From a virus: a stretch of 38,888 nt of DNA. The stretch is from positions 1-38,888 of the IMG/VR virus record IMGVR_UViG_3300048839_000889. One strand, written 5' to 3'. Shown one piece after another: positions 3,772 to 37,394 of the stretch. The notes under the pieces were generated by a model. It did no database searches and had not been told where the DNA came from. It worked only from the letters and a program-made list of their open reading frames with translations. Within the stretch, counting starts at the first letter, position 1. Every line of letters begins with the position of its first letter. A program made the translations under genes and the position numbers.

Positions 3772-3800
3772 GACCGTGTGCGCCCGACACCGTTATGCCA
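3772..3800 (-). promoter_or_regulatory. Predicted leftward promoter of the RDF-like operon
   Basis: Minus-strand TGGCAT, 17 bp, ACGGTC. It belongs to the window-wide two-box family (see findings). It lies just beyond two hairpin terminators and 46 bases before the ATG at 3726. It shares TGGCAT(A/G)ACGGTGT with the element at 4586-4615. Confidence 0.6.
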
Positions 3801-3826
3801 GTAGGTCCGCAAAAAAATCTGGGAAC

Positions 3827-3880
3827 GTCAAAGGCGGCGCGTCCAGGAGCCTGGAGAGAAACCGGACGCGCCGCCTTGAC
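3827..3880 (-). terminator. Long GC hairpin, second terminator after the 3977 operon
   Basis: The arms GGCGGCGCGTCC (3833-3844) and GGACGCGCCGCC (3864-3875) pair perfectly over 12 bp, extended by GTCAA/TTGAC with one bulge, around a 19-base loop. On the minus strand it is followed about 16 bases later by a run of seven T. It sits between the operon terminator at 3916-3943 and the promoter at 3772-3800, insulating the two operons. Confidence 0.65.
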
Positions 3881-3901
3881 CGTTACAACAGTCCTGACAC
3901 T

Positions 3902-3976
3902 TGCCCCGACAGCAAGACACCCCACCCAGTCGGGTGGGGTGTCCTTCTCACGGCAGCGAGAGTGCGTCGTTGTTTG
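3902..3976. repeat. Duplicated 3' module, copy A
   Basis: About 75 bases immediately after the stop codon of the minus gene at 3977, repeated after the minus gene at 5222 (5140-5221). The 30 bases next to the stop (3947-3976) are identical in both copies, and the hairpin stem sequences vary while keeping pairing. Confidence 0.85.
3916..3943 (-). terminator. Perfect 12-bp hairpin terminator of the 4543-3977 operon
   Basis: Arms GACACCCCACCC and GGGTGGGGTGTC with a four-base loop. It lies about 33 bases past the stop of the 74-aa gene on the minus strand. No long U tract follows, as is common for GC-rich actinobacterial terminators. Confidence 0.75.
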
Positions 3977-4201
3977 TCAGAACCAGGGGTCGGTGCTGTC
4001 ATCACAGTCGACCGGACCGAACTCGCCGGCACGGACACGGGCCTGCATCGCATCGAACTCGTCAGGCACGATCGCCCGGTCGATAGCAGTAGCCAGCTCG
4101 CGCACCTGGGCGCGCAGCACGTCGCACTCGTCTGCGGGCACAACCCAGTCGGACAGGTTGAAATCGTCAGACTCGACGTCGGAAACCTCGTAGATGCTCA
4201 T
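3977..4201 (-). CDS. Small acidic hypothetical protein, 74 aa
   Basis: Starts MSIYEVSDVESDDFNLSDWV. Strongly acidic, with a helical middle (CDVLRAQVRELATAIDRAI). A strong GGAGGTG ribosome site precedes ATG 4201. It is the last gene of a three-gene leftward operon and is followed directly by the duplicated terminator module. Its acidity and size would fit a DNA-mimic or inhibitor protein, but that is speculation. Confidence 0.75.
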   Translation of the reverse strand: MSIYEVSDVESDDFNLSDWVVPADECDVLRAQVRELATAIDRAIVPDEFDAMQARVRAGEFGPVDCDDSTDPWF

Positions 4202-4202
4202 C

Positions 4203-4409
4203 TCACACCTCCTTCGCAAGGAGAGCGGTACGGCCACCAGACCGCACAAACGCTGTGATGGCCTCAACAAGCTGCGGCGGGACATGCATGACGGTCGTCG
4301 AACCGTCAACGGACCGGAACTTGAACTCGGCGGAGTCGCCGTCCCACTTATACCCGGCGAGACGTTCCTCGCGGGTGCGGGTATCAGGGACAAACACGTG
4401 GCCAGCCAT
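4203..4409 (-). CDS. Small hypothetical protein, 68 aa
   Basis: Starts MAGHVFVPDTRTREERLAGY; the middle (FKFRSVDGSTTVMHVPP) looks like beta strands. The ATG at 4409 overlaps the stop of the preceding 44-aa gene (TGATG), which favours this start over the upstream GTG at 4418. It ends one base before the next start. No family recognised. Confidence 0.7.
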   Translation of the reverse strand: MAGHVFVPDTRTREERLAGYKWDGDSAEFKFRSVDGSTTVMHVPPQLVEAITAFVRSGGRTALLAKEV

Positions 4410-4543
4410 CAGTACCACCCCCCACGATCCTCGAAGGTGCCGTCCTGCACATCGGGGCGGGCCTCGAAACGGTCCCGGTCCACGTCCTCCTCGACCGGTG
4501 GTACCGACAGGTCGCGGTCGTCGGGAACTTCGGTCTTGTCCAT
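4409..4543 (-). CDS. Small acidic protein, 44 aa, first gene of its operon
   Basis: Starts MDKTEVPDDRDLSVPPVEED; very acidic, with no hydrophobic core, so probably disordered. A GGAGG site precedes ATG 4543, and the predicted promoter at 4586-4615 drives it. It is coupled to the next gene through a TGATG overlap. No function assigned. Confidence 0.65.
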   Translation of the reverse strand: MDKTEVPDDRDLSVPPVEEDVDRDRFEARPDVQDGTFEDRGGWY

Positions 4544-4585
4544 GTCAAGCCTCCAGGCTCAAGTCGGCGGGGATGCCTTGAATAG

Positions 4586-4615
4586 GACAGTCCGGACCTG
4601 CACACCGTCATGCCA
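4586..4615 (-). promoter_or_regulatory. Predicted leftward promoter of the 4543-3977 operon
   Basis: Minus-strand TGGCAT, 18 bp, ACTGTC. The upstream AT-rich block (GATTTCTTTGC) resembles the one before the element at 3772-3800 (GATTTTTTTGC), so the two promoters are related over roughly 40 bases. Confidence 0.6.
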
Positions 4616-4657
4616 CAAGGTCAGCAAAGAAATCCCAGAAAATCTGTACGACCCCCA

Positions 4658-4686
4658 TGAACAAGCCACACCCGCCCGGCACCGTC
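4658..4686 (+). promoter_or_regulatory. Possible rightward promoter of the 4730 gene
   Basis: TGAACA, 17 bp, ACCGTC, facing the only plus-strand gene of the left arm. The first box departs from the TGC pattern of the other sites, so this is one of the weaker members. A partial dyad (4685-4694 with 4713-4723) covers the ribosome site of the gene. Confidence 0.35.
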
Positions 4687-4729
4687 CCTTCTGTGGGAAA
4701 CACCCACCACCAACAGAAAGGGACAACCA

Positions 4730-4978
4730 ATGTCAACCATCGAACAACAGCTAACCGACGACCAGCTGAACCAGTACCGCGTCGGGCTCACCGCAGCGCA
4801 CACCCTCGGGCGAGCCGACGTGACCGGAGAAGACCCGGACCGCTGGGCATGGGAAACGTACGTTCGGGTGATCGCACACCTGAGCGCGGATGACACCATC
4901 GCCCCCGACGTGCGGCTGCACATGCAACGCGAAATGCGTATCGCTCGCGAAAGTGAGTCGTATCGAGACTGGGAGTGA
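4730..4978 (+). CDS. Lone plus-strand hypothetical gene in the leftward arm, 82 aa
   Basis: Starts MSTIEQQLTDDQLNQYRVGL; helical, acidic, soluble. The ribosome site AAAGGGA lies about seven bases before the ATG, inside an imperfect inverted repeat (TCCCTTCTGT / ACAGAAAGGGA). A perfect 14-bp hairpin terminator follows at 5004-5035. Its opposite orientation, own promoter and own terminator set it apart from the operons around it. That pattern would suit a gene expressed in lysogeny, but no HTH or other domain is visible, so this is inference from layout only. Confidence 0.7.
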   Translation: MSTIEQQLTDDQLNQYRVGLTAAHTLGRADVTGEDPDRWAWETYVRVIAHLSADDTIAPDVRLHMQREMRIARESESYRDWE

Positions 4979-5003
4979 TTGGACACAACCAGCGAACATG
5001 AGT

Positions 5004-5035
5004 GCAGGCCTCTGGTGATGACACCAGAGGCCTGC
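5004..5035 (+). terminator. Perfect 14-bp hairpin after the 4730 gene
   Basis: Arms GCAGGCCTCTGGTG and CACCAGAGGCCTGC with an ATGA loop, 25 bases after the stop, followed by TTGCTG. The strongest hairpin of the window by stem length. Confidence 0.8.
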
Positions 5036-5058
5036 TTGCTGTGCCCGTACACGCGACA

Positions 5059-5097
5059 GCCCGCCGGGGGCTTCAGGAGGCCATGTGCCCGGCGGGC
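5059..5097. terminator. Second hairpin in the 4979-5221 gap
   Basis: Arms GCCCGCCGGG and CCCGGCGGGC, ten perfect pairs, with a 19-base loop. Together with 5004-5035 and 5156-5184 it fills the gap between the plus gene 4730 and the convergent minus gene 5222, so it may terminate either strand. Confidence 0.5.
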
Positions 5098-5139
5098 GCC
5101 GCGACCCTCACCGTCCCGGCCAAGGTGGGACGCGCAACG

Positions 5140-5221
5140 TGCCCCGACAGCAGGACACCCCGCCCAGTTGACCCGGGCGGGGTGCTCCATCTCACGGCAG
5201 CGAGAGTGCGTCGTTGTTTGT
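5140..5221. repeat. Duplicated 3' module, copy B
   Basis: Second copy of the 3902-3976 module, next to the stop of the minus gene at 5222. The 30 bases at 5191-5220 are identical to copy A, and the loop is five bases longer. Confidence 0.85.
5156..5184 (-). terminator. Hairpin terminator of the 5814-5222 operon
   Basis: Arms CACCCCGCCC and GGGCGGGGTG, ten perfect pairs, loop of nine bases, within module copy B. Confidence 0.7.
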
Positions 5222-5536
5222 TCAGTCGGTGAGATCTGCGGTCTTGCGTCCGCGGCGTCCTGGGCGGGCGGGTTCACCGTCGGCTTGGGCGAGTAGGTCG
5301 CCGGCAAGCCAGCGGGAGATGTCGAGCAGGTTGGCGAGCCGGCGGATGGATGTGCGCCTGGTGGCGGTGAGCTGGCGGAGCGCTTCGAGGCGTTGCGCGG
5401 TGAGGTGTCGGCGTTGCTGTTCGCAGGCGGCGAGCGCGTTGTGTGCTCGGATGAGTGCGAGTTCGGGGGTTTCGGGTCGGGCGGGTGGTTCGGCAGTGAT
5501 GCCGGTCGGACCCCAGAGGGTGAGCGGCCCGGTCAT
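5222..5536 (-). CDS. Small protein with C-terminal helix-turn-helix-like segment, 104 aa
   Basis: Residues about 40-70 are a basic helical region. Residues about 63-90, RRTSIRRLANLLDISRWLAGDLLAQ, read like a helix-turn-helix. The tail is basic (RPGRRGRKTADLTD). ATG at 5536 overlaps the stop of the 92-aa gene (TGATG). DNA binding is likely from the helix pattern and charge; it is one of the few candidate transcription regulators here, but no target is known. It is followed by the duplicated terminator module. Confidence 0.7.
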   Translation of the reverse strand: MTGPLTLWGPTGITAEPPARPETPELALIRAHNALAACEQQRRHLTAQRLEALRQLTATRRTSIRRLANLLDISRWLAGDLLAQADGEPARPGRRGRKTADLTD

Positions 5537-5814
5537 CACGCCACCTCGTACTGGCCGCCCCACGAGCGGTAGAGCTCCTGGACGCGCTCGAGGGCGGTGT
5601 TCCACTCGGTGTCGGTCAACTCGGGCTCGGCTGGCATGTAGATGTCGCAGACGTCGTCGTCACGAGAGCCCCACTCGGCGTGGCCGGCGTCGACGAGCGC
5701 GTGGGCGATAGCCTCGCCGTAGAGGTCGAGGTCGATGATGTCGGTAGTGTCGCCGGACATCTCGATGAGGTCGACGGCGCGGTAGCGGGTGGTGGGGACT
5801 TCGATCTTGTTCAT
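5536..5814 (-). CDS. Acidic hypothetical protein, 92 aa
   Basis: Starts MNKIEVPTTRYRAVDLIEMSGDTTDIIDLD; acidic throughout, soluble, mixed alpha/beta in appearance. AGGAGG ribosome site before ATG 5814. First gene of a two-gene operon ahead of the HTH-like protein. A long in-frame extension upstream has no ribosome site and crosses the promoter and terminator region, so it is not used. Confidence 0.75.
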   Translation of the reverse strand: MNKIEVPTTRYRAVDLIEMSGDTTDIIDLDLYGEAIAHALVDAGHAEWGSRDDDVCDIYMPAEPELTDTEWNTALERVQELYRSWGGQYEVA

Positions 5815-5865
5815 GGTGGCCTCCTGAGCCTTAGAGCCGGCGGGGTTGCCTTTCGCTCTACATAG

Positions 5866-5894
5866 GACCGTCCGGAGGTGCGGACACTTTTTCA
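5866..5894 (-). promoter_or_regulatory. Possible leftward promoter of the 5814-5222 operon
   Basis: On the minus strand CGGACGGTCC is followed by TATGTAG. The SACNGT box fits the window-wide family, but the first box 17 bp upstream is TGAAAA and does not match. TATGTA could instead be an ordinary -10. One of the weaker calls. Confidence 0.35.
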
Positions 5895-5935
5895 TGGAGG
5901 CTGGCAAGATTTTCGAGATTTCTTTCCGTACGCGA

Positions 5936-5961
5936 AAGGGTCCCGCTTCGGCGGGACCCTT
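5936..5961 (-). terminator. Hairpin terminator after the 5988 gene
   Basis: Arms AAGGGTCCCGC and GCGGGACCCTT, 11 perfect pairs, four-base loop (CGAA on the minus strand), 26 bases past the minus-strand stop at 5988. Confidence 0.75.
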
Positions 5962-5987
5962 CCATGACTGACTGCGGTTGGGTGGCT

Positions 5988-6221
5988 TCACATAGGCGGC
6001 TCCACCAGCTCGACGAGCTGCAGGAAGTCGTCCCCGCACGCCGGGCATTCGATGTGGTGATGCTGCCCGCCGCTCCAATCATCCTCGGGTTGGCCGTACC
6101 AGCGGGTCTCACGGTCGCCGTCAGCGTCCTCATGGACGTTGCACCGCCAGTTCTGGGCGATGAGCACAACCTCGATGAGGTCGAGGTTGCCGCAGTGTGG
6201 GCACGCTCGGAACGTCGTCAT
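5988..6221 (-). CDS. Zinc-ribbon protein, 77 aa
   Basis: Two knuckles, CPHC at residues 7-10 and CPAC near residue 60, form a classical zinc ribbon separated by an acidic, His-rich stretch (GGQHHHIE). GAGGAG ribosome site before ATG 6221; overlaps the preceding gene by four bases. Last gene before the hairpin at 5936-5961. Probably a small protein- or nucleic-acid-binding accessory factor; target unknown. Confidence 0.75.
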   Translation of the reverse strand: MTTFRACPHCGNLDLIEVVLIAQNWRCNVHEDADGDRETRWYGQPEDDWSGGQHHHIECPACGDDFLQLVELVEPPM

Positions 6222-6400
6222 GTCCGCTCCTCGTCAAGGGCCCGTGTGGCCCGGGCGGCAAGGAAGGCACCGTCGAGGAGTGCGACAGCTGCGGGGGAAC
6301 CTGCCTCGGGGGCGCCGGCGTCTGCGAGGTACCAGTGGGTGAGCTGCCGGATTGCCATCGCCATCGCCAGGATGAGCGTGTCTGCGTCGTCGGAGGTCAC
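6218..6400 (-). CDS. Small helical hypothetical protein, 60 aa
   Basis: GTG start at 6400 overlapping the stop of the preceding gene (GTGA). Ala-rich and helical (ILAMAMAIRQLTHWYLADAG, ALLDGAFLAARATRALDEE). No motif recognised. The alternative start at 6418 would overlap its neighbour more deeply. Confidence 0.65.
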   Translation of the reverse strand: MTSDDADTLILAMAMAIRQLTHWYLADAGAPEAGSPAAVALLDGAFLAARATRALDEERT

Positions 6401-6609
6401 AGCACACCGTCTTCCCACCGCTCGAAGTACGACAGCACCTCGAGGAGTAGCAGGGTGGCGTTGCCGGGTCCGCCTCGTCGGGCGACCAGGTAGGCCTCGA
6501 TGACGTCAGCGAACTTGGTCAGCTCCTTGGCGGACTTTCTGGCGTCTGCTGCGGCGGTCCGCATGTGGGCTTCGCCGATTTGGTTGGCGATTTCATCCTG
6601 GATGGTCAT
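6397..6609 (-). CDS. Small helical hypothetical protein, 70 aa
   Basis: Starts MTIQDEIANQIGEAHMRTAA; amphipathic helices through most of its length. GGAGG ribosome site before ATG 6609. The intergenic gap upstream (6610-6686) holds a possible promoter, GTGCAA, 18 bp, ACAGTC on the minus strand. No family recognised. Confidence 0.7.
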   Translation of the reverse strand: MTIQDEIANQIGEAHMRTAAADARKSAKELTKFADVIEAYLVARRGGPGNATLLLLEVLSYFERWEDGVL

Positions 6610-6649
6610 TGCGCTTGCCTCCTTTTGCCGGGTATCTCCCAGCGGAGGC

Positions 6650-6679
6650 GACTGTGACCGCGAGGGTCAGTCGTTGCAC
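6650..6679 (-). promoter_or_regulatory. Possible leftward promoter of the 6609-5988 group
   Basis: Minus-strand GTGCAA, 18 bp, ACAGTC, in the 77-base gap between the 7076 and 6609 genes. Weaker member of the two-box family. Confidence 0.4.
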
Positions 6680-6686
6680 ACGCCGG

Positions 6687-7076
6687 TCAGTCCCACCAGA
6701 TGACCCACTTGCCGTCGACCTTTTCGATGCTGTCGGGGATGGTGCCTGTCTCCTCCTGCACGACCTGGCGGACGGTCTCCAGGGGGATACTCCCGTCGAC
6801 GGTCACCGTGTCGAGGTGGAGGCGTGCGTCCCGGCGGGGCGGCTCAATGAGACAGCCGCTGAGGGTGGCGTCCTCGTCGAGCAGCATCGCTGTGCGGATG
6901 AGTGTTGCCGGGCCCGGCAAGTTGTCGATCACCTCGTCACCGCAAATGTCTGGCACGTACAGCCCAAGCACGTGCTGCACCATCGCCCATGGCGCACGGG
7001 TGATGTCCGGGTCAGGTCCGTCGCCCAGGTAAAGCGCCAGGTACTCCCGGGCCCTGTCCCATCGTGCCTCATCCAT
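6687..7076 (-). CDS. Hypothetical protein, 129 aa
   Basis: Starts MDEARWDRAREYLALYLGDG. Soluble, acidic, mixed secondary structure; the C-terminus (DSIEKVDGKWVIWWD) looks like a beta hairpin. It overlaps the preceding gene by eight bases. No recognised domain. Confidence 0.75.
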   Translation of the reverse strand: MDEARWDRAREYLALYLGDGPDPDITRAPWAMVQHVLGLYVPDICGDEVIDNLPGPATLIRTAMLLDEDATLSGCLIEPPRRDARLHLDTVTVDGSIPLETVRQVVQEETGTIPDSIEKVDGKWVIWWD

Positions 7077-7344
7077 GTGTCCACTCCTCTCCCCAAACCA
7101 GTATGGGGTGCAACCCCAGCAAACGGACCGCCAGCTGGTCGGCCTGCCACACCGTCAGCTCACCTGACTCCCGGGCCCGGTAGTACGCCCGAGCCATCGC
7201 ATCCGACGGCCGGCAGGTGGCGAGTCCGCCACGGGCTTCGACGAGCTCGACGAGCGGGTCGGCTGCCAGCCGGCGATGACTATCACTGTGGATAGTGTCA
7301 CCGGGGATACTGTCATCAGTGATACCTACTGGCGTGGTGGTCAC
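7069..7344 (-). CDS. Hypothetical protein with putative leaderless start, 91 aa
   Basis: GTG start at 7344, five bases after the ACGGTC box of the element at 7350-7378. The first 25 codons contain a cluster of direct and inverted DNA repeats (7281-7324) that could be an operator. The C-terminal two thirds are helical (AMARAYYRARESGELTVWQADQLAVRLLG). First gene of the operon following the terminator at 7384-7414. Function unknown. Confidence 0.7.
   Translation of the reverse strand: MTTTPVGITDDSIPGDTIHSDSHRRLAADPLVELVEARGGLATCRPSDAMARAYYRARESGELTVWQADQLAVRLLGLHPILVWGEEWTHG
7281..7324. promoter_or_regulatory. Operator-like repeat cluster inside the start of the 7344 gene
   Basis: TATCACTG (7281-7288) and CAGTGATA (7317-7324) form an inverted pair. 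Between them lie near-identical direct repeats GGATAGTGTCA (7290-7300) and GGATACTGTCA (7305-7315), spaced 15 bases. The cluster starts about 20 bases into the coding sequence, just downstream of the predicted leaderless promoter. Confidence 0.4.
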
Positions 7345-7349
7345 ACCGC

Positions 7350-7378
7350 GACCGTGCGCGGGACGCGCGGCGCGGCAT
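7350..7378 (-). promoter_or_regulatory. Predicted leaderless promoter of the 7344 operon
   Basis: Minus-strand ATGCCG, 17 bp, ACGGTC, then five bases to GTG 7344. Confidence 0.5.
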
Positions 7379-7383
7379 ACGCA

Positions 7384-7414
7384 ACAACCCCGCCTGGCTG
7401 AAAGGCGGGGTTGT
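7384..7414 (-). terminator. Hairpin terminator after the replication operon
   Basis: Arms ACAACCCCGCC and GGCGGGGTTGT, 11 perfect pairs with a nine-base loop, about 70 bases past the minus-strand stop at 7485 and just before the next operon. Confidence 0.75.
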
Positions 7415-7484
7415 CACGAGAGGTAAGTGGTTGGGTCCGACGTCAGACCACCCTGACCGTCCTGGACGGCATCGCCGCCGCAAC

Positions 7485-7862
7485 CTACGCAGGATGCTCG
7501 TCAATCAACGCCGCCGCATCAATCAGGCCGAGTAGGTCCGCCAGGCTGCCCTCCTCGGGCAGGTACTCCGCCACCAGCTGGACCGCCACATCGGTACAGC
7601 CGGCGTGCCTCAAACCGATCGCCACGAAAACTACGTCAGTCATCACAGACACGTCGCCCGCGGCCGTCGCGAACACCAGATTAGATCCCGTGCGGTCCTC
7701 CAAGCGAGCCAACAGCTCGAACACACCCGACAGGCACAACAACTCCTCCCACTCGGGCGGCAGCCCAGGCGCCAGGAACGCCGCCACCCACGCCCGGGCA
7801 TGAGCTACCAGGCGTCGGCGGTCACGCATCATGCCGTCCACGGTGGCAGGTGGCTGCGACAT
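7485..7862 (-). CDS. Hypothetical protein, 125 aa
   Basis: Starts MSQPPATVDGMMRDRRRLVAH at 7862, with ATGA overlap to the preceding gene. Helical and acidic in the second half; one Cys pair (LLCLSG ... AGCTDV) without a clear metal motif. Last gene of the operon that starts with the winged-helix and ATPase genes. No family recognised. Confidence 0.75.
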   Translation of the reverse strand: MSQPPATVDGMMRDRRRLVAHARAWVAAFLAPGLPPEWEELLCLSGVFELLARLEDRTGSNLVFATAAGDVSVMTDVVFVAIGLRHAGCTDVAVQLVAEYLPEEGSLADLLGLIDAAALIDEHPA

Positions 7863-8637: not shown

Positions 8638-8651
8638 GACACTTCTCCTTG

Positions 8652-10084: not shown

Positions 10085-10230
10085 GTCTGCCTCCCACGCA
10101 TGACGGTGCGTGAAGGGGACTGTTCCGGCGCCATCCTCGGATGCAAGGGTCTTGTCCGGATAACGCGGACCGCCCCAGGGAGGCAGTCCCCAGGGCGGCC
10201 CATGCGGCAAGACACCGCACCGTCCCACCA

Positions 10231-10259
10231 GACCGTGCCGAGGCATCAACAAGGCGCAA
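10231..10259 (-). promoter_or_regulatory. Predicted leftward promoter of the replication operon
   Basis: Minus-strand TTGCGC, exactly 17 bp, ACGGTC. One of the best matches to the two-box family. It predicts a leader of roughly 140 bases before ATG 10084. Confidence 0.65.
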
Positions 10260-10484: not shown

Positions 10485-10513
10485 TTGCACACCCGGCCCG
10501 AGCACACACAGTC
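10485..10513 (+). promoter_or_regulatory. Predicted rightward promoter of the late region
   Basis: TTGCAC, 17 bp, ACAGTC, 44 bases before ATG 10558. Good match to the two-box family. Confidence 0.6.
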
Positions 10514-10744: not shown

Positions 10745-10773
10745 TGGCGCCCAACACCCAGCCACGGACCGTC
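10745..10773 (+). promoter_or_regulatory. Predicted promoter before terminase
   Basis: TGGCGC, 17 bp, ACCGTC, beginning four bases after the stop of the 60-aa gene. ATG 10807 lies 33 bases downstream. Confidence 0.6.
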
Positions 10774-11295: not shown

Positions 11296-12695
11296 CCATG
11301 CTCGCCCCAGCCGAGCAGTCACCCGCACAACGCCTCGCCGCACTCCCACCCGAACAACGCCGCGACACCCTCGCCCGCCTCGGAGACAGCAAACTCCGCG
11401 GCCTCGCCGCCGACTGGCGTTTCTGGGCCCGCCCCAGCCAACTCGCACCGCTTGGCGCCTGGCTCGTCTGGCTCATCCTCGCCGGCCGCGGCTGGGGCAA
11501 AACCCGCTGCGGCGCCGAATGGGTCCTCGACCGCATCGCCGCACACACCACCCCGGGCCCGCACCGCGTCGCCCTCGTCGGACGTACCGCCGCCGACGTC
11601 CGCGACACCATGATCGAAGGCGAATCAGGTCTCGTCGCCTGCGCTGAACGACGCGGCTGGCACGCCGAATACGAACCCTCCAAGCGGCGTGTCACCATCA
11701 CCACCCCCGACGGGCACACCGGCCTGTGCACCGCCTACTCGGCCGAAGAACCCGACCAGCTGCGTGGACCACAGCACCACTCCGCCTGGTGCGACGAGCT
11801 CGCCGCCTGGCGGCCCCGCGTCGACGCTGTCGGCAACACCGCCTGGACCAACCTCAGCTTCGGACTCCGCCTCGGCAACGACCCACGCTCCGTCATCACC
11901 ACCACCCCACAGACCACCAAAGCGATCCGCGAACTCATCGCCGACGAAGACACGCACGTCACGAGAGGCACCACCTACGACAACGCCTCCAACCTCGCCC
12001 CCTCCATGCTGAAGAAGCTGCTCGCCCTGTACGAAGGGACACGCATCGGACGGCAAGAACTGCTCGCCGAACTCCTCGAAGACATCGAAGGCGCCCTGTG
12101 GACCGCCGCCCTCATCGGCTCCGAACGGGTCAAACGAGCCGAAGTGCCCCCGCTACGCAAAGTCGTCGTAGCCATCGACCCGCCCGGCACGTCACACGGC
12201 GACGAATGCGGCATCGTCGTCGTCGGAGTCGCACGCGACGACCGCGGCCTCGAACACGCCTACGTCCTCGCCGACGAATCAGCAGGCGGACTCACCCCAG
12301 ACGCCTGGGCGCGCAGGGCAATCATGGCGTACCTCAACTACGACGCCGCCGAAATCGTCGTCGAACAGAACCAAGGCGGCGAGATGACCGAACAAGTCAT
12401 TGCCGACGCTGGACGAGCCCTCGCTGCGGACGGGCACCCAACCCGGACCATCCCAACCAAGCGAGTCCACGCCAGCACGAACAAAGCCACTCGAGCAGCG
12501 CCCGTCGTAGCGCTGTACGAGCAAGGCCGCGTCCACCACGTGGGTCCGCACCCGGAACTCGAGGACCAGATGACGACATGGGTACCAGACGACAAGACGG
12601 CCGACAGCCCCGACAGGATCGACGCGCTCGTCTGGGCTGTGCGTCGCCTGCTCGTCGGCGGCGACCGCACCTACACGATCCACAGGGCCAGGTGA
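11292..12695 (+). CDS. terL: Terminase large subunit, 467 aa
   Basis: ATP-driven packaging motor and headful or site-specific nuclease. Walker A GRGWGKT at residues 65-71 and acidic WCDE at 166-169 mark the ATPase. In the C-terminal nuclease, VAIDPPGTSHGDECG supplies the first aspartate, IVVEQNQGGEM the second acidic site and DALVWAVRRLL the third. The length is usual for actinophage terminases. GTG 11292 overlaps terS; ATG 11298 is an alternative. Residues 149-163 are encoded by a 43-bp stretch that recurs inverted at 26807-26849. Confidence 0.95.
   Translation: MTMLAPAEQSPAQRLAALPPEQRRDTLARLGDSKLRGLAADWRFWARPSQLAPLGAWLVWLILAGRGWGKTRCGAEWVLDRIAAHTTPGPHRVALVGRTAADVRDTMIEGESGLVACAERRGWHAEYEPSKRRVTITTPDGHTGLCTAYSAEEPDQLRGPQHHSAWCDELAAWRPRVDAVGNTAWTNLSFGLRLGNDPRSVITTTPQTTKAIRELIADEDTHVTRGTTYDNASNLAPSMLKKLLALYEGTRIGRQELLAELLEDIEGALWTAALIGSERVKRAEVPPLRKVVVAIDPPGTSHGDECGIVVVGVARDDRGLEHAYVLADESAGGLTPDAWARRAIMAYLNYDAAEIVVEQNQGGEMTEQVIADAGRALAADGHPTRTIPTKRVHASTNKATRAAPVVALYEQGRVHHVGPHPELEDQMTTWVPDDKTADSPDRIDALVWAVRRLLVGGDRTYTIHRAR
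11737..11779 (+). repeat. 43-bp inverted repeat, terminase copy (native)
   Basis: Perfect reverse complement of 26807-26849. Here it encodes SAEEPDQLRGPQHH, part of the conserved ATPase region, so this copy is the original and the tail-region copy the derived one. Confidence 0.95.
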
Positions 12696-15200: not shown

Positions 15201-15229
15201 CCTTGCGCGTCCGACAGCACAGCGGACCG
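15201..15229 (+). promoter_or_regulatory. Predicted promoter before the scaffold gene
   Basis: TTGCGC, 17 bp, ACCGTG, starting three bases after the MuF stop. ATG 15276 lies 46 bases downstream. Confidence 0.6.
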
Positions 15230-15275
15230 TGCATGGCAGCGACGTGAGACGCGTCGACTGACCATGTGAGGCGAG

Positions 15276-16873: not shown

Positions 16874-16902
16874 TGGCGTTCCCGGGCCAGGTTCGCACGG
16901 TG
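16874..16902 (+). promoter_or_regulatory. Predicted leaderless promoter of the glycosyltransferase
   Basis: TGGCGT, 17 bp, ACGGTG, then exactly six bases to GTG 16909. There is no convincing ribosome site, consistent with a leaderless mRNA. Confidence 0.55.
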
Positions 16903-16908: not shown

Positions 16909-18018
16909 GTGAAGGTCCTCGCTCATGTCCACGGCTATCCGCCTGCCCATCGTGCTGGCGCTGAGATGGCGTTGCATGCCGTGCTCCGTTGGCTGGCCGA
17001 CCGCGGCCATGAGTGCCGTGTGATTGTCCCGAACGACCGGTATGCGGTGACTGGTGTTGTCGACGGTGTGACGGTGACTGCGGGCGTGTCACAACGGCAG
17101 GTTGCTGAGGCGTGGGAGTGGTGTGATGTCGCGTTCACCCACCTGGATCTGACGCATCAGGCGGTGTCGTTGGCGGTCAAGCATGACCGGCCGCTCGTCC
17201 ACTATCTGCACAACGACAAGCAGCTGGCGTTTCACAAGGTGCCGCTCGACCAGGCGCAGCTGGTCGTCTCCAACAGCCAATGGATTGCGGACACGCTCCC
17301 AGACGACTGGCCGACTGTGGTCGTGTACCCGCCTGTCGAACCGGACCGGTACCGCCTCGCGTCACCTGGTGACGCGGTCACGCTCGTCAACCTGACTGAA
17401 CAGAAGGGTGCTGCAACGTTCTACGAGCTTGCACGTCGCAACCCTCACCGGCCGTTCCTTGGGGTGCGCGGCTCATACGGCGAGCAGGTCATCCCGAGGC
17501 GTCTACCTGCCAACGTGACTGTCGCAGAGACGACGTCCGACATGGTTGGCGACGTGTACGCGCGCACCCGGGTGGTGCTCATGCCGTCGCATTACGAGTC
17601 GTGGGGGCGTGTCGCTATCGAGGCGTGCTGTGCCGGGATCCCGGTGATTGCCGCACCAACACCCGGCCTGTGCGAGTCGTTGGGGGATGCGGGACGGTTC
17701 GCTGAGCCGGACGACATTGACGGCTGGCAAGCACACCTTGACGAATTGGACGACCCCAAGGTGTACGAGGCGGCTGCGGCTGCTGGCCATGATCGGGCTG
17801 TCGAACTGGCCGGGCTCGTCGACGCCCAGCTGGTCGCACTCGAAGACCGGCTGTCCGCCGTGGCGGACACGTTCTACGAGCTGCCCGACCTCGACACCCA
17901 CCAGCTCGACATGTTGCGCCGAGGCGTATGGGCGGTCGCCCCTGGCGGCGGGCTCACACTCACGGACCGTAGGACGTACGACACCGTGCTGCACGCCCGC
18001 GGCTACCGGAGGTACTGA
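16909..18018 (+). CDS. GT4-type glycosyltransferase, 369 aa
   Basis: Retaining GT-B glycosyltransferase. The N-terminal Rossmann domain starts HVHGYPPAHRAGAEMALHAVL, typical of GT4 enzymes. The C-terminal nucleotide-sugar domain carries ESWGRVAIE at residues 230-238, the EX7E motif, followed by GIPVIAAPTPGLCESLGDAG. About 100 further residues end in GYRRY, longer than a minimal GT4. It lies between capsid and connector genes and overlaps the next start by one base. Neither donor nor acceptor can be read from sequence. The likely acceptor is a virion protein such as the capsid, as reported for some actinophages; host surface glycans are the alternative. Confidence 0.88.
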   Translation: MKVLAHVHGYPPAHRAGAEMALHAVLRWLADRGHECRVIVPNDRYAVTGVVDGVTVTAGVSQRQVAEAWEWCDVAFTHLDLTHQAVSLAVKHDRPLVHYLHNDKQLAFHKVPLDQAQLVVSNSQWIADTLPDDWPTVVVYPPVEPDRYRLASPGDAVTLVNLTEQKGAATFYELARRNPHRPFLGVRGSYGEQVIPRRLPANVTVAETTSDMVGDVYARTRVVLMPSHYESWGRVAIEACCAGIPVIAAPTPGLCESLGDAGRFAEPDDIDGWQAHLDELDDPKVYEAAAAAGHDRAVELAGLVDAQLVALEDRLSAVADTFYELPDLDTHQLDMLRRGVWAVAPGGGLTLTDRRTYDTVLHARGYRRY

Positions 18019-19780: not shown

Positions 19781-19809
19781 CTGCGCGTCCTGGCGCACCC
19801 CGGACCATC
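19781..19809 (+). promoter_or_regulatory. Predicted promoter before the major tail protein
   Basis: CTGCGC, 17 bp, ACCATC, four bases after the preceding stop. ATG 19848 lies 38 bases downstream with a GGAGG site. Confidence 0.6.
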
Positions 19810-21845: not shown

Positions 21846-21874
21846 CGGCGGGCGGGCCGCTTCTCCGGACCATC
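21846..21874 (+). promoter_or_regulatory. Possible promoter before the tape measure gene
   Basis: CGGCGG, 17 bp, ACCATC; the second box and its distance from the preceding stop match the other sites, while the first box is weak. ATG 21902 lies 27 bases downstream. Confidence 0.4.
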
Positions 21875-26806: not shown

Positions 26807-26849
26807 TGGTGCTGTGGTCCACGCAGCTGGTCGGGTTCTTCGGCCGAGT
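26807..26849 (-). repeat. 43-bp inverted repeat, tail copy (derived)
   Basis: All 43 bases equal the reverse complement of 11737-11779 in the terminase gene. Flanking bases diverge immediately on both sides. It sits exactly where the small tail gene changes frame. Confidence 0.95.
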
Positions 26850-26986: not shown

Positions 26987-27015
26987 CTGCCTGTGACGCC
27001 CAACCCCGGACGGTC
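26987..27015 (+). promoter_or_regulatory. Predicted leaderless promoter of the fibre gene
   Basis: CTGCCT, 17 bp, ACGGTC, then six bases to ATG 27022. It overlaps the end of the disrupted gene. Confidence 0.5.
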
Positions 27016-28850: not shown

Positions 28851-28879
28851 CTGCCGGCTGCCTGCCGGTCCGGACAGTC
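28851..28879 (+). promoter_or_regulatory. Predicted leaderless promoter of the endolysin
   Basis: CTGCCG, 17 bp, ACAGTC, then six bases to ATG 28886. A clear match that would give the lysin its own transcript. Confidence 0.6.
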
Positions 28880-30232: not shown

Positions 30233-30262
30233 CGGCACACGCAGGCCAAGGTCCGGACGGTC
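30233..30262 (+). promoter_or_regulatory. Possible promoter of the metallophosphoesterase gene
   Basis: CGGCAC, 18 bp, ACGGTC, 26 bases before GTG 30289. The 92-base gap upstream also has a dyad, TGTCCGCACGTGCGGACA, near 30198-30215. Confidence 0.45.
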
Positions 30263-31500: not shown

Positions 31501-31529
31501 TGGCGCTGGTGCGATCAGCGCGGACAGTC
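31501..31529 (+). promoter_or_regulatory. Predicted leaderless promoter of the holin-like gene
   Basis: TGGCGC, 17 bp, ACAGTC, then six bases to ATG 31536. Confidence 0.6.
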
Positions 31530-32429: not shown

Positions 32430-32434
32430 CCTGC

Positions 32435-32533: not shown

Positions 32534-32577
32534 CTCCATGTTCAAGGCCGCTTGTTGCCGAACCGATGCCTACGGGT

Positions 32578-33048: not shown

Positions 33049-33051
33049 CTG

Positions 33052-34158
33052 TCACAAGATTGACAGGGCCCGGTCCAGGTGGTCGGAGTCTGCACCCACA
33101 TACCTCGCATGGGTGAACCTCGGGTTGGAATGGCCGAGCATCCGGCTCGCATCCTCCAACGTCACACCCCGGGCCAGCCACTGTGTTGCGGCGTGATGCC
33201 GCAACGAGTGGAACGTCATCCCTGCCGGCCAGCCAGCCGCCTCGTGAGCCGGCTGCCACGACCGGCGGTTCCAGTTGGACCGGCGTAGCGTCCGGCCTCT
33301 CACCGTTGAGAACACCAGCTGGTCCCCATCCAGACCATCCAACGTGGCCGCCAGGTCGTCGACCAGGTCCCGCGGGATGGGAGCCCACCGAACGCCAGCA
33401 GAAGTCTTCGGTGGCCGTATTTCCAGGGCGCCGCTGTCCCCTTCGCCAACCTGGCGCAGAACCTGCACGCGCCGCTCCTGGAGCGACACGTCGCAAGGCC
33501 TGACGGCAATCGCCTCACCCCACCGCAAACCAGTACCAGCAGCGAACCGGACAAGCAGACTGTCGATGTCACGGTCCATCGCCCCAGCCAACGCAGCCAC
33601 CTGGGCGGGCGTCGGCACCAGCTCCGGTGGCACCAGCTCGAACGGGTCCTGGGCACGGCGAGGTGCACGCACACCGACCAGCGGATCTTCGGTCTGGCCC
33701 CACACGCCACGCTGCCGCCCATACATGACGACGCCACGCATCGCTTGCAGCACGCCGTTGACAGTCGAGCTCGACATGCCCTTCGCTGCGACCTGGTCAA
33801 GCACACGCTGCCAGTAGAGCGGCGTCATCGTTGACGCCCGCCGGGTGCCGACCGCCGGGATCAGATAGGTGCGCACCACTGACCGCATCTTGTCCCGATG
33901 GCGGACACCCCACGTGTTCGGCTCAGCCATCCACGACGATGCCAGCGCACCGATTGTCACGTGCGGCTGGACCGCCTCACCGGGAGCGCCGATCCGCAAC
34001 GCTTCCGCTGCGGCGATCTGGTGCGCTTCGGACGCTGTACCACATCGGTGTTCGTGCTGCTTGCCGCCCTCCTGCCAGTAGACCCGCCAGCGGTCCTTGG
34101 AGGGACGGACGCTGACAGGCCCGTAGCGGACCGTGTCGGCCGCTGGCCGCCGCCCCAT
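33052..34158 (-). CDS. int: Tyrosine integrase, 368 aa
   Basis: Site-specific recombinase for integration and excision. N-terminal arm-binding domain (RWRVYWQEGGKQHEHRCGTASEAHQIAAA), core-binding SAM-like domain (residues about 70-170), and catalytic domain with Arg about 211 in TGLRWGE, His-x-x-Arg at 317-320 in FHSLRHH, His in MLGHSNP and Tyr353 in HARYVG. All catalytic residues are present. ATG 34158 overlaps the stop of the excisionase-like gene (ATGA). Near the tRNA-Ala with flanking GTTYCTGGC repeats that are likely arm sites. Confidence 0.95.
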   Translation of the reverse strand: MGRRPAADTVRYGPVSVRPSKDRWRVYWQEGGKQHEHRCGTASEAHQIAAAEALRIGAPGEAVQPHVTIGALASSWMAEPNTWGVRHRDKMRSVVRTYLIPAVGTRRASTMTPLYWQRVLDQVAAKGMSSSTVNGVLQAMRGVVMYGRQRGVWGQTEDPLVGVRAPRRAQDPFELVPPELVPTPAQVAALAGAMDRDIDSLLVRFAAGTGLRWGEAIAVRPCDVSLQERRVQVLRQVGEGDSGALEIRPPKTSAGVRWAPIPRDLVDDLAATLDGLDGDQLVFSTVRGRTLRRSNWNRRSWQPAHEAAGWPAGMTFHSLRHHAATQWLARGVTLEDASRMLGHSNPRFTHARYVGADSDHLDRALSIL

Positions 34159-34418
34159 CAGGCAGCCACCTTTCGGCGAGGACCTCTGGGCCGGCTCACA
34201 AGGAGTTCAGGCGTCACATAGGCGGGGATGTTGACCGGCACTTCGGCCCGGCCGGACAGCCACTGCTCCACGTCGCTCACACGCCAGCGCACGCAGCGTG
34301 CCGCCAGGCGGTAGCGGGCCGGGAAGCCTGCCTCGTTGCTCAGTCGCCGGGCGGTGCTTTCGCTCACACCCAGCATGTCGGCCATTCCGGCCAGGTCCAT
34401 GAGACGTTCGTTGCTCAT
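34158..34418 (-). CDS. xis: Excisionase-type HTH protein, 86 aa
   Basis: MerR/AlpA-like winged HTH: MDLAGMADMLGVSESTARRLSNEAGFPARYRLAARCVRWRVSDVEQWL is the standard helix-turn-helix plus wing followed by the W..sDv..Wl ending of phage excisionases. ATG 34418 is chosen because the HTH starts there and the predicted promoter ends six bases upstream. Co-expressed with integrase through the ATGA overlap, so it may also regulate integrase. Confidence 0.82.
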   Translation of the reverse strand: MSNERLMDLAGMADMLGVSESTARRLSNEAGFPARYRLAARCVRWRVSDVEQWLSGRAEVPVNIPAYVTPELLVSRPRGPRRKVAA

Positions 34419-34424
34419 GGCGGC

Positions 34425-34452
34425 AACGGTGCTCGGTGCCCACTGTGCGCCA
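34425..34452 (-). promoter_or_regulatory. Predicted leaderless promoter of xis-int
   Basis: Minus-strand TGGCGC, 16 bp, ACCGTT, then six bases to ATG 34418. Confidence 0.5.
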
Positions 34453-34486
34453 TTCGGCCGCCACGGAGCGTCACCGGGTGGCAGGT

Positions 34487-34762
34487 GTTTCTGGCGGTTC
34501 CTGGCAGCCGACCGTCCCGGACCGCTGGAACACAGGGCGTTTCGCCCGTTGAACGCCTGCTTGCAAAGCGTGGGGTAGCGCACGTCGTTCCCCTTGTAGC
34601 TGCTGGGCGCGAGGCCCGTTTGTGGTGCCAGAAACGTTTGGTGGTTCCTGGCGGGTGGTGGAGGTGATGGGACTCGAACCCACGGCCTGCTGCTTGCAAA
34701 GCAGCTGCTCTAGCCAGCTGAGCTACACCCCCGGCGACGTTGAGGCTACCCGCGTTTCTGGC
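34487..34762. other. attP: Probable attP region: tRNA flanked by GTTYCTGGC repeats
   Basis: GTTTCTGGC or GTTCCTGGC occurs at 34487, 34497, 34644 and 34754 on the plus strand and at 34627-34635 on the minus strand, on both sides of the tRNA gene and next to xis-int. Tyrosine integrases commonly recombine within tRNA genes and bind short arm repeats around the core. A 13-bp copy of the anticodon-arm sequence (CTGCTTGCAAAGC) at 34557-34569 repeats 34690-34702. The rest of the 34419-34843 gap holds no gene. Confidence 0.65.
34656..34732 (-). tRNA. tRNA-Ala (anticodon TGC) with encoded CCA
   Basis: A full cloverleaf can be folded by eye: acceptor GGGGGTG/CACCTCC with the G3-U70 pair that defines alanine tRNAs, D arm GCTC/GAGC, anticodon stem GCTGC/GCAGC with loop TTTGCAA (anticodon TGC), T arm GTGGG/CCCAT with TTCGAGT, discriminator A and genomic CCA. 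It is 74 nt plus CCA. It may work as a phage tRNA and also serve as attP core, restoring the host gene on integration. Confidence 0.93.
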
Positions 34763-34843
34763 GTGCCCACCTAACCCGGCTGGAATGCGATGAGAGGTGC
34801 ACACGTCTCACTTTTTCCGGCGCGCTGGGGCCTTTCCGGTAGG

Positions 34844-35296
34844 TCAGGACACCCGGACCCTTCCGGCGGCTATTTCGCACACCCATGCGACCGTTACACC
34901 GAACTCGGCTGCGAGCGCCTTGGTGTTGCCTCCGATGCCGCCGACGTGCCGGTCCCGAATGATGGCGACCTGCTCGTCCGTCAGTTTGAGCGGTCGGCGG
35001 TCCCGCCTCCTGCTCATCATGTCGTGCGTGTTGTCCCGGTACGTGCCGAGCAGCAGGTGCAAAGGCTCGACGCACGACGGGTTGTCGCACATGTGACGTA
35101 CCACCATGCCCTTAGGGATCTTGCGGCGGTTGGCTCGCTCCCACGCCCACCGGTGCGCCCCGACCTGGCGGCGTCCCTCAGCGGTGAACTGTCCGTAGCG
35201 GCTGGTTCCGGTGCTGTGCGCTCCGGTCCATTCGAGGCAGCCGGTCAGCTCGTTGCGGCGGGTCTTGGCGTCGAAGCGCTCATCAATGGTGGGCAT
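34844..35296 (-). CDS. HNH endonuclease with C-terminal HTH, 150 aa
   Basis: Homing-type HNH nuclease: CLEWTGAHSTGTSRYGQF, then GAHRWAWERANRRKIPKGMVVRHMCDNPSCVEPLHLLLGT with the HNH His and Cys pair, NTHDMMSRRR, and a C-terminal HTH (LTDEQVAIIRDRHVGGIGGNTKALAAEFGVTVAWVCEIAAG). Such enzymes are usually mobile and sit next to conserved genes; here it is beside the tRNA and attP. Some HNH proteins instead assist packaging, but this one is far from the terminase. Confidence 0.88.
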   Translation of the reverse strand: MPTIDERFDAKTRRNELTGCLEWTGAHSTGTSRYGQFTAEGRRQVGAHRWAWERANRRKIPKGMVVRHMCDNPSCVEPLHLLLGTYRDNTHDMMSRRRDRRPLKLTDEQVAIIRDRHVGGIGGNTKALAAEFGVTVAWVCEIAAGRVRVS

Positions 35297-35301
35297 GCCG
35301 G

Positions 35302-35330
35302 CACGGTTGGCGCCCCAGCCTCAACGGCAA
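35302..35330 (-). promoter_or_regulatory. Predicted leaderless promoter of the HNH gene
   Basis: Minus-strand TTGCCG, 17 bp, ACCGTG, then five bases to ATG 35296. It starts two bases past the terminator at 35333-35350. Confidence 0.55.
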
Positions 35331-35332
35331 GA

Positions 35333-35350
35333 GCCCCGCCGAAGCGGGGC
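35333..35350 (-). terminator. Hairpin terminator after the 35612 gene
   Basis: Arms GCCCCGC and GCGGGGC, seven pairs, stable TTCG loop on the minus strand, eight bases past the stop at 35358. Confidence 0.7.
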
Positions 35351-35357
35351 CCTTGGG

Positions 35358-35612
35358 TCACACGGTCAGACCGTGGTCCATCGGTGATGGCACGTGCACG
35401 ACAGGGACGCACAGCACCTGTGCCCGGACACGTGCCGCAGGCAGCAGGCGCTCGTCGCTGACCCAGATGGCACACACGTTGCCGGACGGGCCGACGATGC
35501 TGCCAACCGGGAGCGGTCGGTCGTCGTCGTTGACGAAGACGCGGGGCGTGTGCCGACTGGCGGGTTCGCCACAGTGGGGACACTTCTCCACGGGGAGGCG
35601 GGAAGGGCGCAT
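35358..35612 (-). CDS. Small zinc-binding protein, 84 aa
   Basis: N-terminal CPHCGEPASRH gives a CxxC plus a distant Cys/His, a probable zinc site. The rest is beta-rich (RVFVNDDDRPLPVGSIVGPSGNVCAIWV). AAGGAG before ATG 35612. Single-gene unit with its own promoter and terminator and an operator-like palindrome upstream (35707-35725). Function unknown. Confidence 0.75.
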   Translation of the reverse strand: MRPSRLPVEKCPHCGEPASRHTPRVFVNDDDRPLPVGSIVGPSGNVCAIWVSDERLLPAARVRAQVLCVPVVHVPSPMDHGLTV

Positions 35613-35650
35613 AGCTTGTCTCCTTGCTTTGGTTGGGTGGTAGCGCCATC

Positions 35651-35679
35651 CACCGTCAGCGCTTCAACAACCATCGCAA
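35651..35679 (-). promoter_or_regulatory. Predicted promoter of the 35612 gene
   Basis: Minus-strand TTGCGA, 17 bp, ACGGTG, 38 bases before ATG 35612. A 19-bp palindrome lies 27 bases upstream of the first box. Confidence 0.6.
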
Positions 35680-35706
35680 GGGTTGGGCAGCAAGTCGCTG
35701 CCCAAT

Positions 35707-35725
35707 GTGCTACGAGTCGTAGCAC
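35707..35725. promoter_or_regulatory. Operator-like palindrome 1
   Basis: GTGCTACGAGTCGTAGCAC, a perfect 19-bp palindrome around a central G, just past the end of the adenine methyltransferase gene and upstream of the 35612 promoter. Two near-identical sites lie at 36882-36927. The centre GAGTC is a GANTC sequence. Confidence 0.75.
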
Positions 35726-35727
35726 AG

Positions 35728-36807
35728 TCAGAACAAAGCCGTCTGAATGTCCGTACCCGCCGACACATCCAAGCAATGCGGCGAGAACCACAAGCACTCC
35801 TTCACACGGTTCGCGTGGTTGCCGTCCTGCCGTGCCGCCGACGCAGCCGTGGAGTAGGCGGCGGACGCCGAGTAGTAGTGGCGTCGCCAAGTGTCAGGCA
35901 TTAGTGCGTCGTGTTCGTCGATGTACCCGGCGAGCACGATGCGGAATCGGGGGTTGTCACCGTTGGCGAGGCACCACTCCCTGACGTCATGTGCGATGGT
36001 GTGGTCATCGACGGTGTACAGGTCGGCGGTGCGCACGTCGCCGAGGTAGGGCGGGTCAAGGAACACGCCGACCGTCGACCCGTGAGCCAGCGCTCCGGTG
36101 GTGACAACGCGTGACCAGTCGCCGCAGCAGACTCGAGTGTCTCGGAGCCGGGCGGTAAGCTGCTCAAAGTAGGCGTAGACGCCGGCGGTGCGGTATTCCA
36201 GATTGTTGTAGCCGCTTTGCCCGGCGTTGCCGAGGTCGGGTCGCTGGCGTTTCACGCCCCGCCCGCCGTCGCCGAGGTGGGGTAGCTGGCGGTTCACGCC
36301 CTGCCCGCCGTTGCCGAGGTGGGGGCGCTTGCGGACGATGCCGTCCTGATCGACCATCCACGGTCCGGTGCCGGCGCACCACCCTGAACCGATCCATGCG
36401 TTCACGCCCCACACCCACCAACCGGCCACCTGTGCGTCATAGAAATCCGGGTCGGCTCCCATGCCGTTTAGCAACCGCGACCGTCCGGTGTTGGTCAGCC
36501 ACAGGTGGCGGGAGAAGAGGTCGACCTCGTTCACCGGCCAGTCACACCAGGCGGCGACGGCCTCCGGGTCATGAGCAAGCGCACGCCAAAAGTTGGCGAC
36601 GAACCCGTCAGCGTCGTTGACCGTTTCGGTGCGCCGGGGGCCGTCGTTCATGTCGTGCGGACGGGCCAGCAATACGGCCCCGGACCCAAAAAACGGTTCA
36701 ACGTAGTTAGGCACGTCACCAAGTGCTGCCCAAACTTCAGCCGCGACGCGGCGCTTGCCGCCGAACCAGACAAACGGGGATTTGAAGGTGGGGGAATCTC
36801 CAGGCAT
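35728..36807 (-). CDS. D12-class N6-adenine DNA methyltransferase, 359 aa
   Basis: Transfers methyl from S-adenosylmethionine to adenine N6. WFGGKRR near residue 14 and EPFFGSGAVLL at 37-47 form the SAM-binding front, and DPPY at 251-254 is the catalytic motif. The target is usually GATC for Dam relatives but cannot be deduced here. Between these, residues about 160-195 hold two and a half copies of a 14-residue unit (PHLGNGGQGVNRQL / PHLGDGGRGVKRQR) in the variable region. ATG 36807 lies six bases after the ACTGTC box, so it is predicted leaderless. Roles could be protection from restriction or regulation. Confidence 0.92.
   Translation of the reverse strand: MPGDSPTFKSPFVWFGGKRRVAAEVWAALGDVPNYVEPFFGSGAVLLARPHDMNDGPRRTETVNDADGFVANFWRALAHDPEAVAAWCDWPVNEVDLFSRHLWLTNTGRSRLLNGMGADPDFYDAQVAGWWVWGVNAWIGSGWCAGTGPWMVDQDGIVRKRPHLGNGGQGVNRQLPHLGDGGRGVKRQRPDLGNAGQSGYNNLEYRTAGVYAYFEQLTARLRDTRVCCGDWSRVVTTGALAHGSTVGVFLDPPYLGDVRTADLYTVDDHTIAHDVREWCLANGDNPRFRIVLAGYIDEHDALMPDTWRRHYYSASAAYSTAASAARQDGNHANRVKECLWFSPHCLDVSAGTDIQTALF
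36224..36328. repeat. 42-bp tandem repeats inside the methyltransferase gene
   Basis: About two and a half imperfect in-frame copies encode the PHLG(N/D)GG(Q/R)GV(N/K)RQ unit. They lie between SAM-binding and catalytic motifs, where target-recognition sequence is expected. Confidence 0.75.
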
Positions 36808-36813
36808 GCACAG

Positions 36814-36842
36814 GACAGTCCTGAACCCAGACCGCTGTGCAG
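36814..36842 (-). promoter_or_regulatory. Predicted leaderless promoter of the methyltransferase
   Basis: Minus-strand CTGCAC, 17 bp, ACTGTC, then six bases to ATG 36807. Confidence 0.6.
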
Positions 36843-36881
36843 GGAGGATACGGCGTCGCTGGCTTCAACGATTCGGCAATA

Positions 36882-36900
36882 GTGCTACGAGTCGTAGACC
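36882..36900. promoter_or_regulatory. Operator-like palindrome 2
   Basis: GTGCTACGAGTCGTAGACC, 16 of 19 bases identical to palindrome 1. Its centre is 23 bp from palindrome 3. Both lie 40-85 bp upstream of the methyltransferase promoter. Confidence 0.7.
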
Positions 36901-36927
36901 AATTGTGCAACGACTCGTAGCACAATT
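36901..36927. promoter_or_regulatory. Operator-like palindrome 3
   Basis: The core GTGCAACGACTCGTAGCAC (36905-36923) is flanked by AATT on both sides, extending the dyad to 27 bp. The central GACTC is again GANTC. Together with palindrome 2 it forms a tandem pair. Confidence 0.75.
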
Positions 36928-36936
36928 GCCGTGAGG

Positions 36937-37359
36937 TCACGCCTGGTTGTGCCGCCGGTGGTACAAGTCCAGCGCCATCGCTGCGAGCATCTCGGCGGAC
37001 ACCGTTGGCCGGCCACGCCAGATCCTCTCCGCATCCTCGATGACCCCCCACGGCACCTGCGCAAAGCCGGAGTTGGCCCGGATGAACGCCATCGCCCGCA
37101 CAGCCACATCGGTAGACGCAAACCTCACAGGCGGGCACGCCCCGTCATGCAGCACACAATCCATGTCCGGATCAGACAACAACACCCCACACCAAAGACA
37201 ATGAGTACACCCGACCCCAGGCCTCGCGTGCACCGTAAACTGCTCGAACTCCAACCTGTGAACCACGCAACGGCGCCACTGCTCACGACACGACAGCGAA
37301 CAGAACACACCCAAACAGCCCTGGTTGCCATCCCGTACAGCAGGAAAAGAGGTTGCCAT
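36937..37359 (-). CDS. Cys-rich protein with treble-clef-like motif, 140 aa
   Basis: Two Cys clusters, VFCSLSCREQWRR and CTHCLWCGVLLSDPDMDCVLHDGACPP, indicate one or two zinc sites; the first resembles a treble-clef finger. The C-terminal half is helical (TVSAEMLAAMALDLYHRRHNQA). The second of two adjacent ATGs (37359) is chosen because it lies six bases after a predicted promoter box. Probably DNA- or RNA-binding; no family assigned. Confidence 0.75.
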   Translation of the reverse strand: MATSFPAVRDGNQGCLGVFCSLSCREQWRRCVVHRLEFEQFTVHARPGVGCTHCLWCGVLLSDPDMDCVLHDGACPPVRFASTDVAVRAMAFIRANSGFAQVPWGVIEDAERIWRGRPTVSAEMLAAMALDLYHRRHNQA

Positions 37360-37365
37360 CATGCT

Positions 37366-37394
37366 TACAGTGTCGGCCCGCTCTCACGCTGCAC
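37366..37394 (-). promoter_or_regulatory. Predicted leaderless promoter of the 37359 gene
   Basis: Minus-strand GTGCAG, 17 bp, ACTGTA, then six bases to ATG 37359. Confidence 0.5.

Follow-up and report, generated by a model that had tools for sequence, protein, structure and literature searches.

We describe a recurrent two-box element in the gaps between the genes of IMG/VR virus record IMGVR_UViG_3300048839_000889, all 38,888 bases of which were analysed and are called the window below. The element occurs far above chance. It is probably a promoter class built in sigma70 geometry and read by a specificity factor other than the housekeeping sigma. The proposed promoter would comprise a -35 box TTGC(G), in the window also CTGC or TGGC, followed by 18 nt, a -10 box [G/C]AC-N-G-T, 7 nt and a purine at +1, and it would be the main promoter class of the phage. 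Because of a 131-bp terminal repeat the record probably represents a complete genome. It belongs to a temperate phage carrying an integrase, an AlpA-like gene, a tRNA-Ala and a Gp3-like directionality factor, and it also encodes terminase, portal, capsid and tail genes and an endolysin. Relatives of the morphogenetic proteins among isolates were mainly found in actinobacteriophages (approximately 25-40% identity). Gene starts were determined with a purpose-written simple codon-based caller, individual start positions being approximate.

The 4.5 kb of intergenic DNA hold 12 copies of the core pattern YKGC-N17-GGACNRT, where 0.21 are expected (simulation maximum 3), and the 34 kb of coding DNA hold four. 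This corresponds to an intergenic/coding density ratio of 22.7, or 24.5 once one missed gene is corrected. Two of the four coding copies, at 870 and 17943, reside shortly upstream of the next gene and may be genuine elements. When other bases were allowed at -12, there were 19 unique intergenic copies, 18 of which face the next gene. The initial annotation, which had every site facing a downstream gene, is to be amended for the copy at 5110-5137 (minus strand), directed towards the 3' end of a plus-strand open reading frame (ORF). Its looser pattern gave 22 intergenic matches compared to 3.07 expected from 300 order-2 Markov simulations (maximum 8). The excess is confirmed, although around one chance match, as estimated there, is somewhat too few. 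The copy at 10485 lies inside an ORF of our gene model. All ten example sites cited there were read back at their coordinates, and the 17-bp spacing is correct when counted from the first hexamer to ACNRTS.

The distance between the boxes is sharply defined. YKGC precedes GGACNRT at an offset of 21 in 12 of 29 intergenic sites, and each other tested offset gave between zero and three. In hexamer notation the element reads TTGCGN-N16-GACNGT, with the boxes at one spacing of 16 nt, within the 16-18 nt of sigma70-family promoters. At the first position of the -10-like hexamer most sites have G, three have C and none has T; the earlier claim that G or C takes the place of this T overlooked an A in two sites. 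Consensus sigma70 promoters were not over-represented in a scan (1 and 0 found against 1.2 and 1.5 expected), and TANNNT is depleted in the intergenic DNA of the phage (9 versus 23.7 expected). An unseeded expectation-maximization motif search of the gaps drifted into C-rich or G-rich tracts and was discarded.

The second box is also phased to start codons. Of the gene starts, 29 are preceded by a gap. In seven of these, [GC]AC.GT stands exactly at -13, and in none at the adjacent offsets; in six of the seven the first box is also present at its usual distance. None of the 29 has TANNNT between -18 and -10. Together with ATG 862, where the element overlaps the preceding gene, the complete element lies exactly 7 nt upstream of seven genes (862, 3765, 16909, 27022, 28886, 31536 and 36807), and it lies 6 nt upstream of gene 35296. 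Since 7 nt is the position expected for the start of a leaderless mRNA, this placement fits leaderless transcripts. For at least seven genes, +1 would thus be the first base of the start codon, and the remaining genes would be leadered, with +1 some 20-45 nt upstream.

Counted over three phages, the window and two relatives, the implied +1 is a purine in all 34 sites (window 17/17, L041 10/10, L357 7/7), always with 7 nt between it and the -10 box, as in sigma70-family promoters, where a purine follows at a fixed 6-8 nt. It is also a purine in 10 of 10 window sites located further upstream of their genes. The sites of the two relatives were selected without reference to the +1 base. A pyrimidine precedes the +1 purine in 24 of the 34.

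These relatives, L041 and L357, were the two virus records that stood out for the element among more than 230 related loci. L041 contains 10 intergenic sites (0.15 expected), all with TTGC, and L357 seven (0.38 expected); in the remaining 231 loci together the element is not enriched (12 seen, 15.4 expected). All three phages have a common structural gene order at a protein identity of 26-52%. In all of them the scaffold gene and the major tail gene are preceded by the element, as is the small terminase gene (TerS) in the window and L041, so that it is conserved partly at orthologous genes. In L041 the base at -12 is often C (CACTGT). L357 has G there in seven of seven sites (GACAGT or GACCGT), and as this phage keeps G-12 at 59% G+C, the box is not explained by base composition. 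The palindrome GAC-N-GTC of the window has been lost in both relatives, which argues that the symmetry is incidental and does not itself make up the functional unit. Relatives recovered by the capsid and relatives of the exonuclease (60-71% identity) lack the element, scans with the integrase, portal, RecA-like and tape-measure proteins gave no relatives, and the phages Rowa, P318 and REQ1 show no enrichment. The promoter character that had been proposed for the element is thus supported by the density contrast, the 7-nt distance to seven start codons, the +1 purine and the recurrence in two divergent phages.

As in promoters of the housekeeping sigma (SigA), A at -11 and T at -7 are present in 34 of 34 sites, both being imposed by the pattern; this would be the geometry of a sigma70-type holoenzyme. 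T at -12, which SigA promoters possess, is found in 0 of the 34. With T-12 excluded and C-10 and G-8 fixed, the housekeeping sigma acting in its usual way is most probably not what reads the box. Recognition would instead fall to an alternative sigma of the host, or to the host polymerase once redirected by a phage product that escaped recognition. A host factor may read the element, as the initial annotation supposed. We consider the chances about even that the three phages share a previously undescribed specificity, TTGC-N18-[G/C]ACNGT avoiding T-12, whose reader would be an unrecognised phage sigma, a retargeting phage factor or a host alternative sigma. In the last case, a temperate phage would have made such a sigma its main route of expression.

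For the earlier statement that the phage encodes no sigma factor, support comes from Pfam scans, in which most unannotated window proteins were searched at E<=1 and some others at 1e-3 only, and from the lack of significant matches of the annotated sigma proteins of Rowa and P318 to the window; a very divergent phage sigma is possible. Among the unknown proteins whose sequences were read, none resembled a sigma. A weak Sigma70_r4 match falls on the helix-turn-helix of the small terminase, and this protein was not accepted as a sigma factor. A repressor gene was likewise not recognised in the window. The records of L041 and L357 are fragmentary, so that a missing shared regulator there carries little weight. 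The two phages annotated with sigma factors of their own are Streptomyces phage Rowa (L393:32087-33013) and Thermobifida phage P318 (L394:8872-9570).

The likely host was approached through the tRNA-Ala of the phage, which is 94-95% identical to that of one genome family, in the phylum of a Solirubrobacterales metagenome-assembled genome. In 2 Mb of one genome of this family (G427), 354 clean gene starts revealed a strong TANNNT 6-9 nt before the start codon and almost no -35 signal. Of its 144.A...T hexamers at -12 to -15, 106 have T as the first base, 19 have C and 16 have G. Hence the leaderless geometry is alike in host family and phage, but the letters of the -10 box differ. The element gave no spacing peak in G427 intergenic DNA (9 at N18, close to other spacings), where the same test made a TTG-N20/21-TANNNT peak clearly visible. 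It was used in place of full-element counts in genomes of the host family and of a comparison of TTGC-N18 with N20, neither of which could be interpreted because the controls were unequal in codon frame and base content. None of 296 genomes of the phylum or 148 of the order was enriched in patterns of the leaderless form.

The main rival to a promoter class with its own specificity is that the sites are housekeeping-sigma promoters of a G+C-rich actinobacterial phage, in which a weak -10 box, reduced to A-11 and T-7, is compensated by the -35 box. Host leaderless promoters do have the same start-codon distance and the same A-11/T-7, C at -6 is favoured in both sets, and a few host starts have C or G in place of T-12. 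But T-12, present in about three quarters of the host sites, is absent from the pooled phage sites, C-10 and G-8 are nearly fixed in the element where the host has little preference, GAC is retained in L357 in spite of its lower G+C content, and the depletion of TANNNT in the phage gaps goes beyond simple absence. We therefore regard this explanation as rather unlikely. Clearly less probable still is an operator array, in which a repressor or other dimer would bind GGACNGTC(C), palindromic in the window, at many promoters in the manner of stoperators. GGACNGTCC occurs at five places, all intergenic and none coding, and the sites are oriented with transcription like stoperators (PMC9283540). 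An operator, however, needs neither a fixed distance to the first box nor a 7-nt phasing to start codons, and the idea was dropped since L041 and L357 have lost the palindrome while keeping both boxes and the +1 purine.

Seven copies at 7 nt from a start codon might also suggest a translational signal, like the start-associated sequences of Cluster K phages, instead of a promoter. The remaining copies, however, are at least 28 nt away, many of their genes having purine-rich ribosome sites of their own, the box shows no complementarity to the tail of the 16S rRNA, and nothing in translation calls for two boxes separated by 17 nt, so that we give this reading very little credence. A chance product of G+C-rich composition and of tuning, the pattern having been composed after viewing the sequence, is already refuted by the 12 copies against 0.21 expected, the independent recovery in two other phages and a +1 purine outside the pattern; it retains practically no probability.

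Several points weigh against a promoter class with a non-housekeeping reader. Promoter activity is read from the sequence, the scans of the window yielded no reader protein, and the host is assigned tentatively, by a single tRNA-Ala match at 95%. Invariance at the positions defined by the pattern is partly forced by the search, the spacing, start-codon phasing, +1 purine and recurrence being independent of it. Furthermore, if an activator made by the phage were needed, it would be unusual for a single class to serve both structural genes and genes of early type, as this one seems to do.

A family of similar non-standard promoters is formed by the early promoters of phiC31, a temperate actinophage, the likeness to our element being drawn at this general level. 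Actinobacterial leaderless TANNNT promoters, as seen in the host-family genome, share A-11, T-7 and the 6-8 nt to the start, whereas the element has G, C or A instead of T-12, fixed C-10 and G-8, and a strong TTGC box. The phage-sigma promoters of the phiEco32-like phage 7-11, GTAAtg-16-aCTA, are likewise bipartite with a 16-nt spacer and phage-wide, and their positions resemble those in a relative that has a different sequence (PMC8948821). In phage 7-11 they are read by a sigma evident from the phage's own genome, and sigma70 promoters are retained for the early genes. The scans of the window recognised no sigma, and genes of various kinds follow the element. Cluster A stoperators, the sites of the L5 repressor, likewise occur in many copies in short intergenic gaps and are oriented with transcription (PMC9283540). 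Each is one 13-bp asymmetric site working alone, whereas the element consists of two boxes at a fixed spacing and phased to +1. The 17-bp repeats of Cluster O are also a phage-specific motif with more than 30 copies and dyad symmetry (PMC4351075), but their placement bears no relation to promoters or start sites, and one third of them lie inside genes.

If the proposed promoter class is real, a small temperate phage would express most of its operons, structural and lytic, via one non-canonical class and avoid the normal -10 box of its host in its gaps. The -12T, usually a strongly favoured base of the -10 box, could then be systematically absent from a whole class of promoters. The element would provide a direct handle on a factor that recognises promoters in an actinobacterial group that has hardly been studied. 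It would also offer a rule by which start sites, those of leaderless genes included, could be annotated in phages of this kind.

Table 1. Copies of the two-box element in the window, with their position relative to predicted genes
Element	Positions	Strand	Context
TGGC-N17-GGACCGT	10745..10772	+	before small terminase gene 10807; ortholog of L041 site 6461
TTGC-N17-GGACCGT	15203..15230	+	before scaffold-position gene 15276; orthologous sites L041 10856, L357 10859
TGGC-N17-GCACGGT	16874..16901	+	7 nt before GTG 16909, putatively leaderless
CTGC-N17-GGACCAT	19781..19808	+	before major tail protein gene 19848; orthologous sites L041 14347, L357 14322
CGGC-N17-GGACCAT	21846..21873	+	before tape measure gene 21902
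CTGC-N17-GGACGGT	26987..27014	+	7 nt before ATG 27022, putatively leaderless
CTGC-N17-GGACAGT	28851..28878	+	7 nt before ATG 28886, endolysin, putatively leaderless
TGGC-N17-GGACAGT	31501..31528	+	7 nt before ATG 31536, putatively leaderless
TGGC-N17-GGACTGT	38777..38804	-	before ClpP-like gene 38015-38728; terminal-repeat duplicate at 36-63, one site
CTGC-N17-GGACTGT	36815..36842	-	7 nt before ATG 36807, DNA methyltransferase, putatively leaderless
TTGC-N17-TGACGGT	35652..35679	-	before gene 35591
TTGC-N17-CAACCGT	35303..35330	-	6 nt before ATG 35296, HNH endonuclease, leaderless candidate
TTGC-N17-GAACAGT	10119..10146	-	before winged-helix gene 10084
TTGC-N17-GCACGGT	10232..10259	-	second copy before gene 10084
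TTGC-N17-GGACGGT	7456..7483	-	long gap before gene 7076
TTGC-N17-GGACTGT	3888..3915	-	before gene 3765
TGGC-N17-ACACGGT	3773..3800	-	7 nt before GTG 3765, Gp3-like recombination directionality factor, putatively leaderless
TGGC-N17-GGACGGT	870..897	-	7 nt before ATG 862, putatively leaderless; overlaps upstream gene
TGGC-N17-GGACCGT	17943..17970	+	47 nt before ATG 18018, within upstream gene
TGGC-N18-GGACTGT	4587..4615	-	one base longer; before gene 4543
CGGC-N18-GGACGGT	30233..30261	+	one base longer; before exonuclease gene 30289
TTGC-N17-GGACGGT	5110..5137	-	sole copy facing no annotated start

Further repeats were noticed in the window, some of them next to the element. The near-perfect palindrome GTGCTACGAGTCGTAGCAC is present in three copies (35701-35726 and 36876-36931) upstream of the elements at 35652 (gene 35591) and 36815 (DNA methyltransferase); these palindromes are likely operators of a separate dimeric regulator. 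At 5936-5961 and 35329-35354 there are G+C-rich hairpins, perfect or nearly so, that have AAGG/CCTT at their ends and are probable two-way terminators, the latter abutting the element at 35303-35330. Part of the large terminase gene, 43 nt long (11737-11779), recurs as a 100% identical inverted copy at 26807-26849, in the gap before gene 27022, with no additional similarity in the surroundings. This copy could be a recombination scar or the source of an antisense RNA. A 36-bp sequence is found, 97% identical, immediately 3' of two different minus-strand genes (3942-3977 and 5186-5221). The DNA methyltransferase gene contains three internal tandem repeats of 42 bp (36219-36344), and inside the terminal repeat there is a 27-bp tandem repeat, GGCGCCGGCTCTTCGACCGG plus flanks, at 74-120 and 38815-38888.

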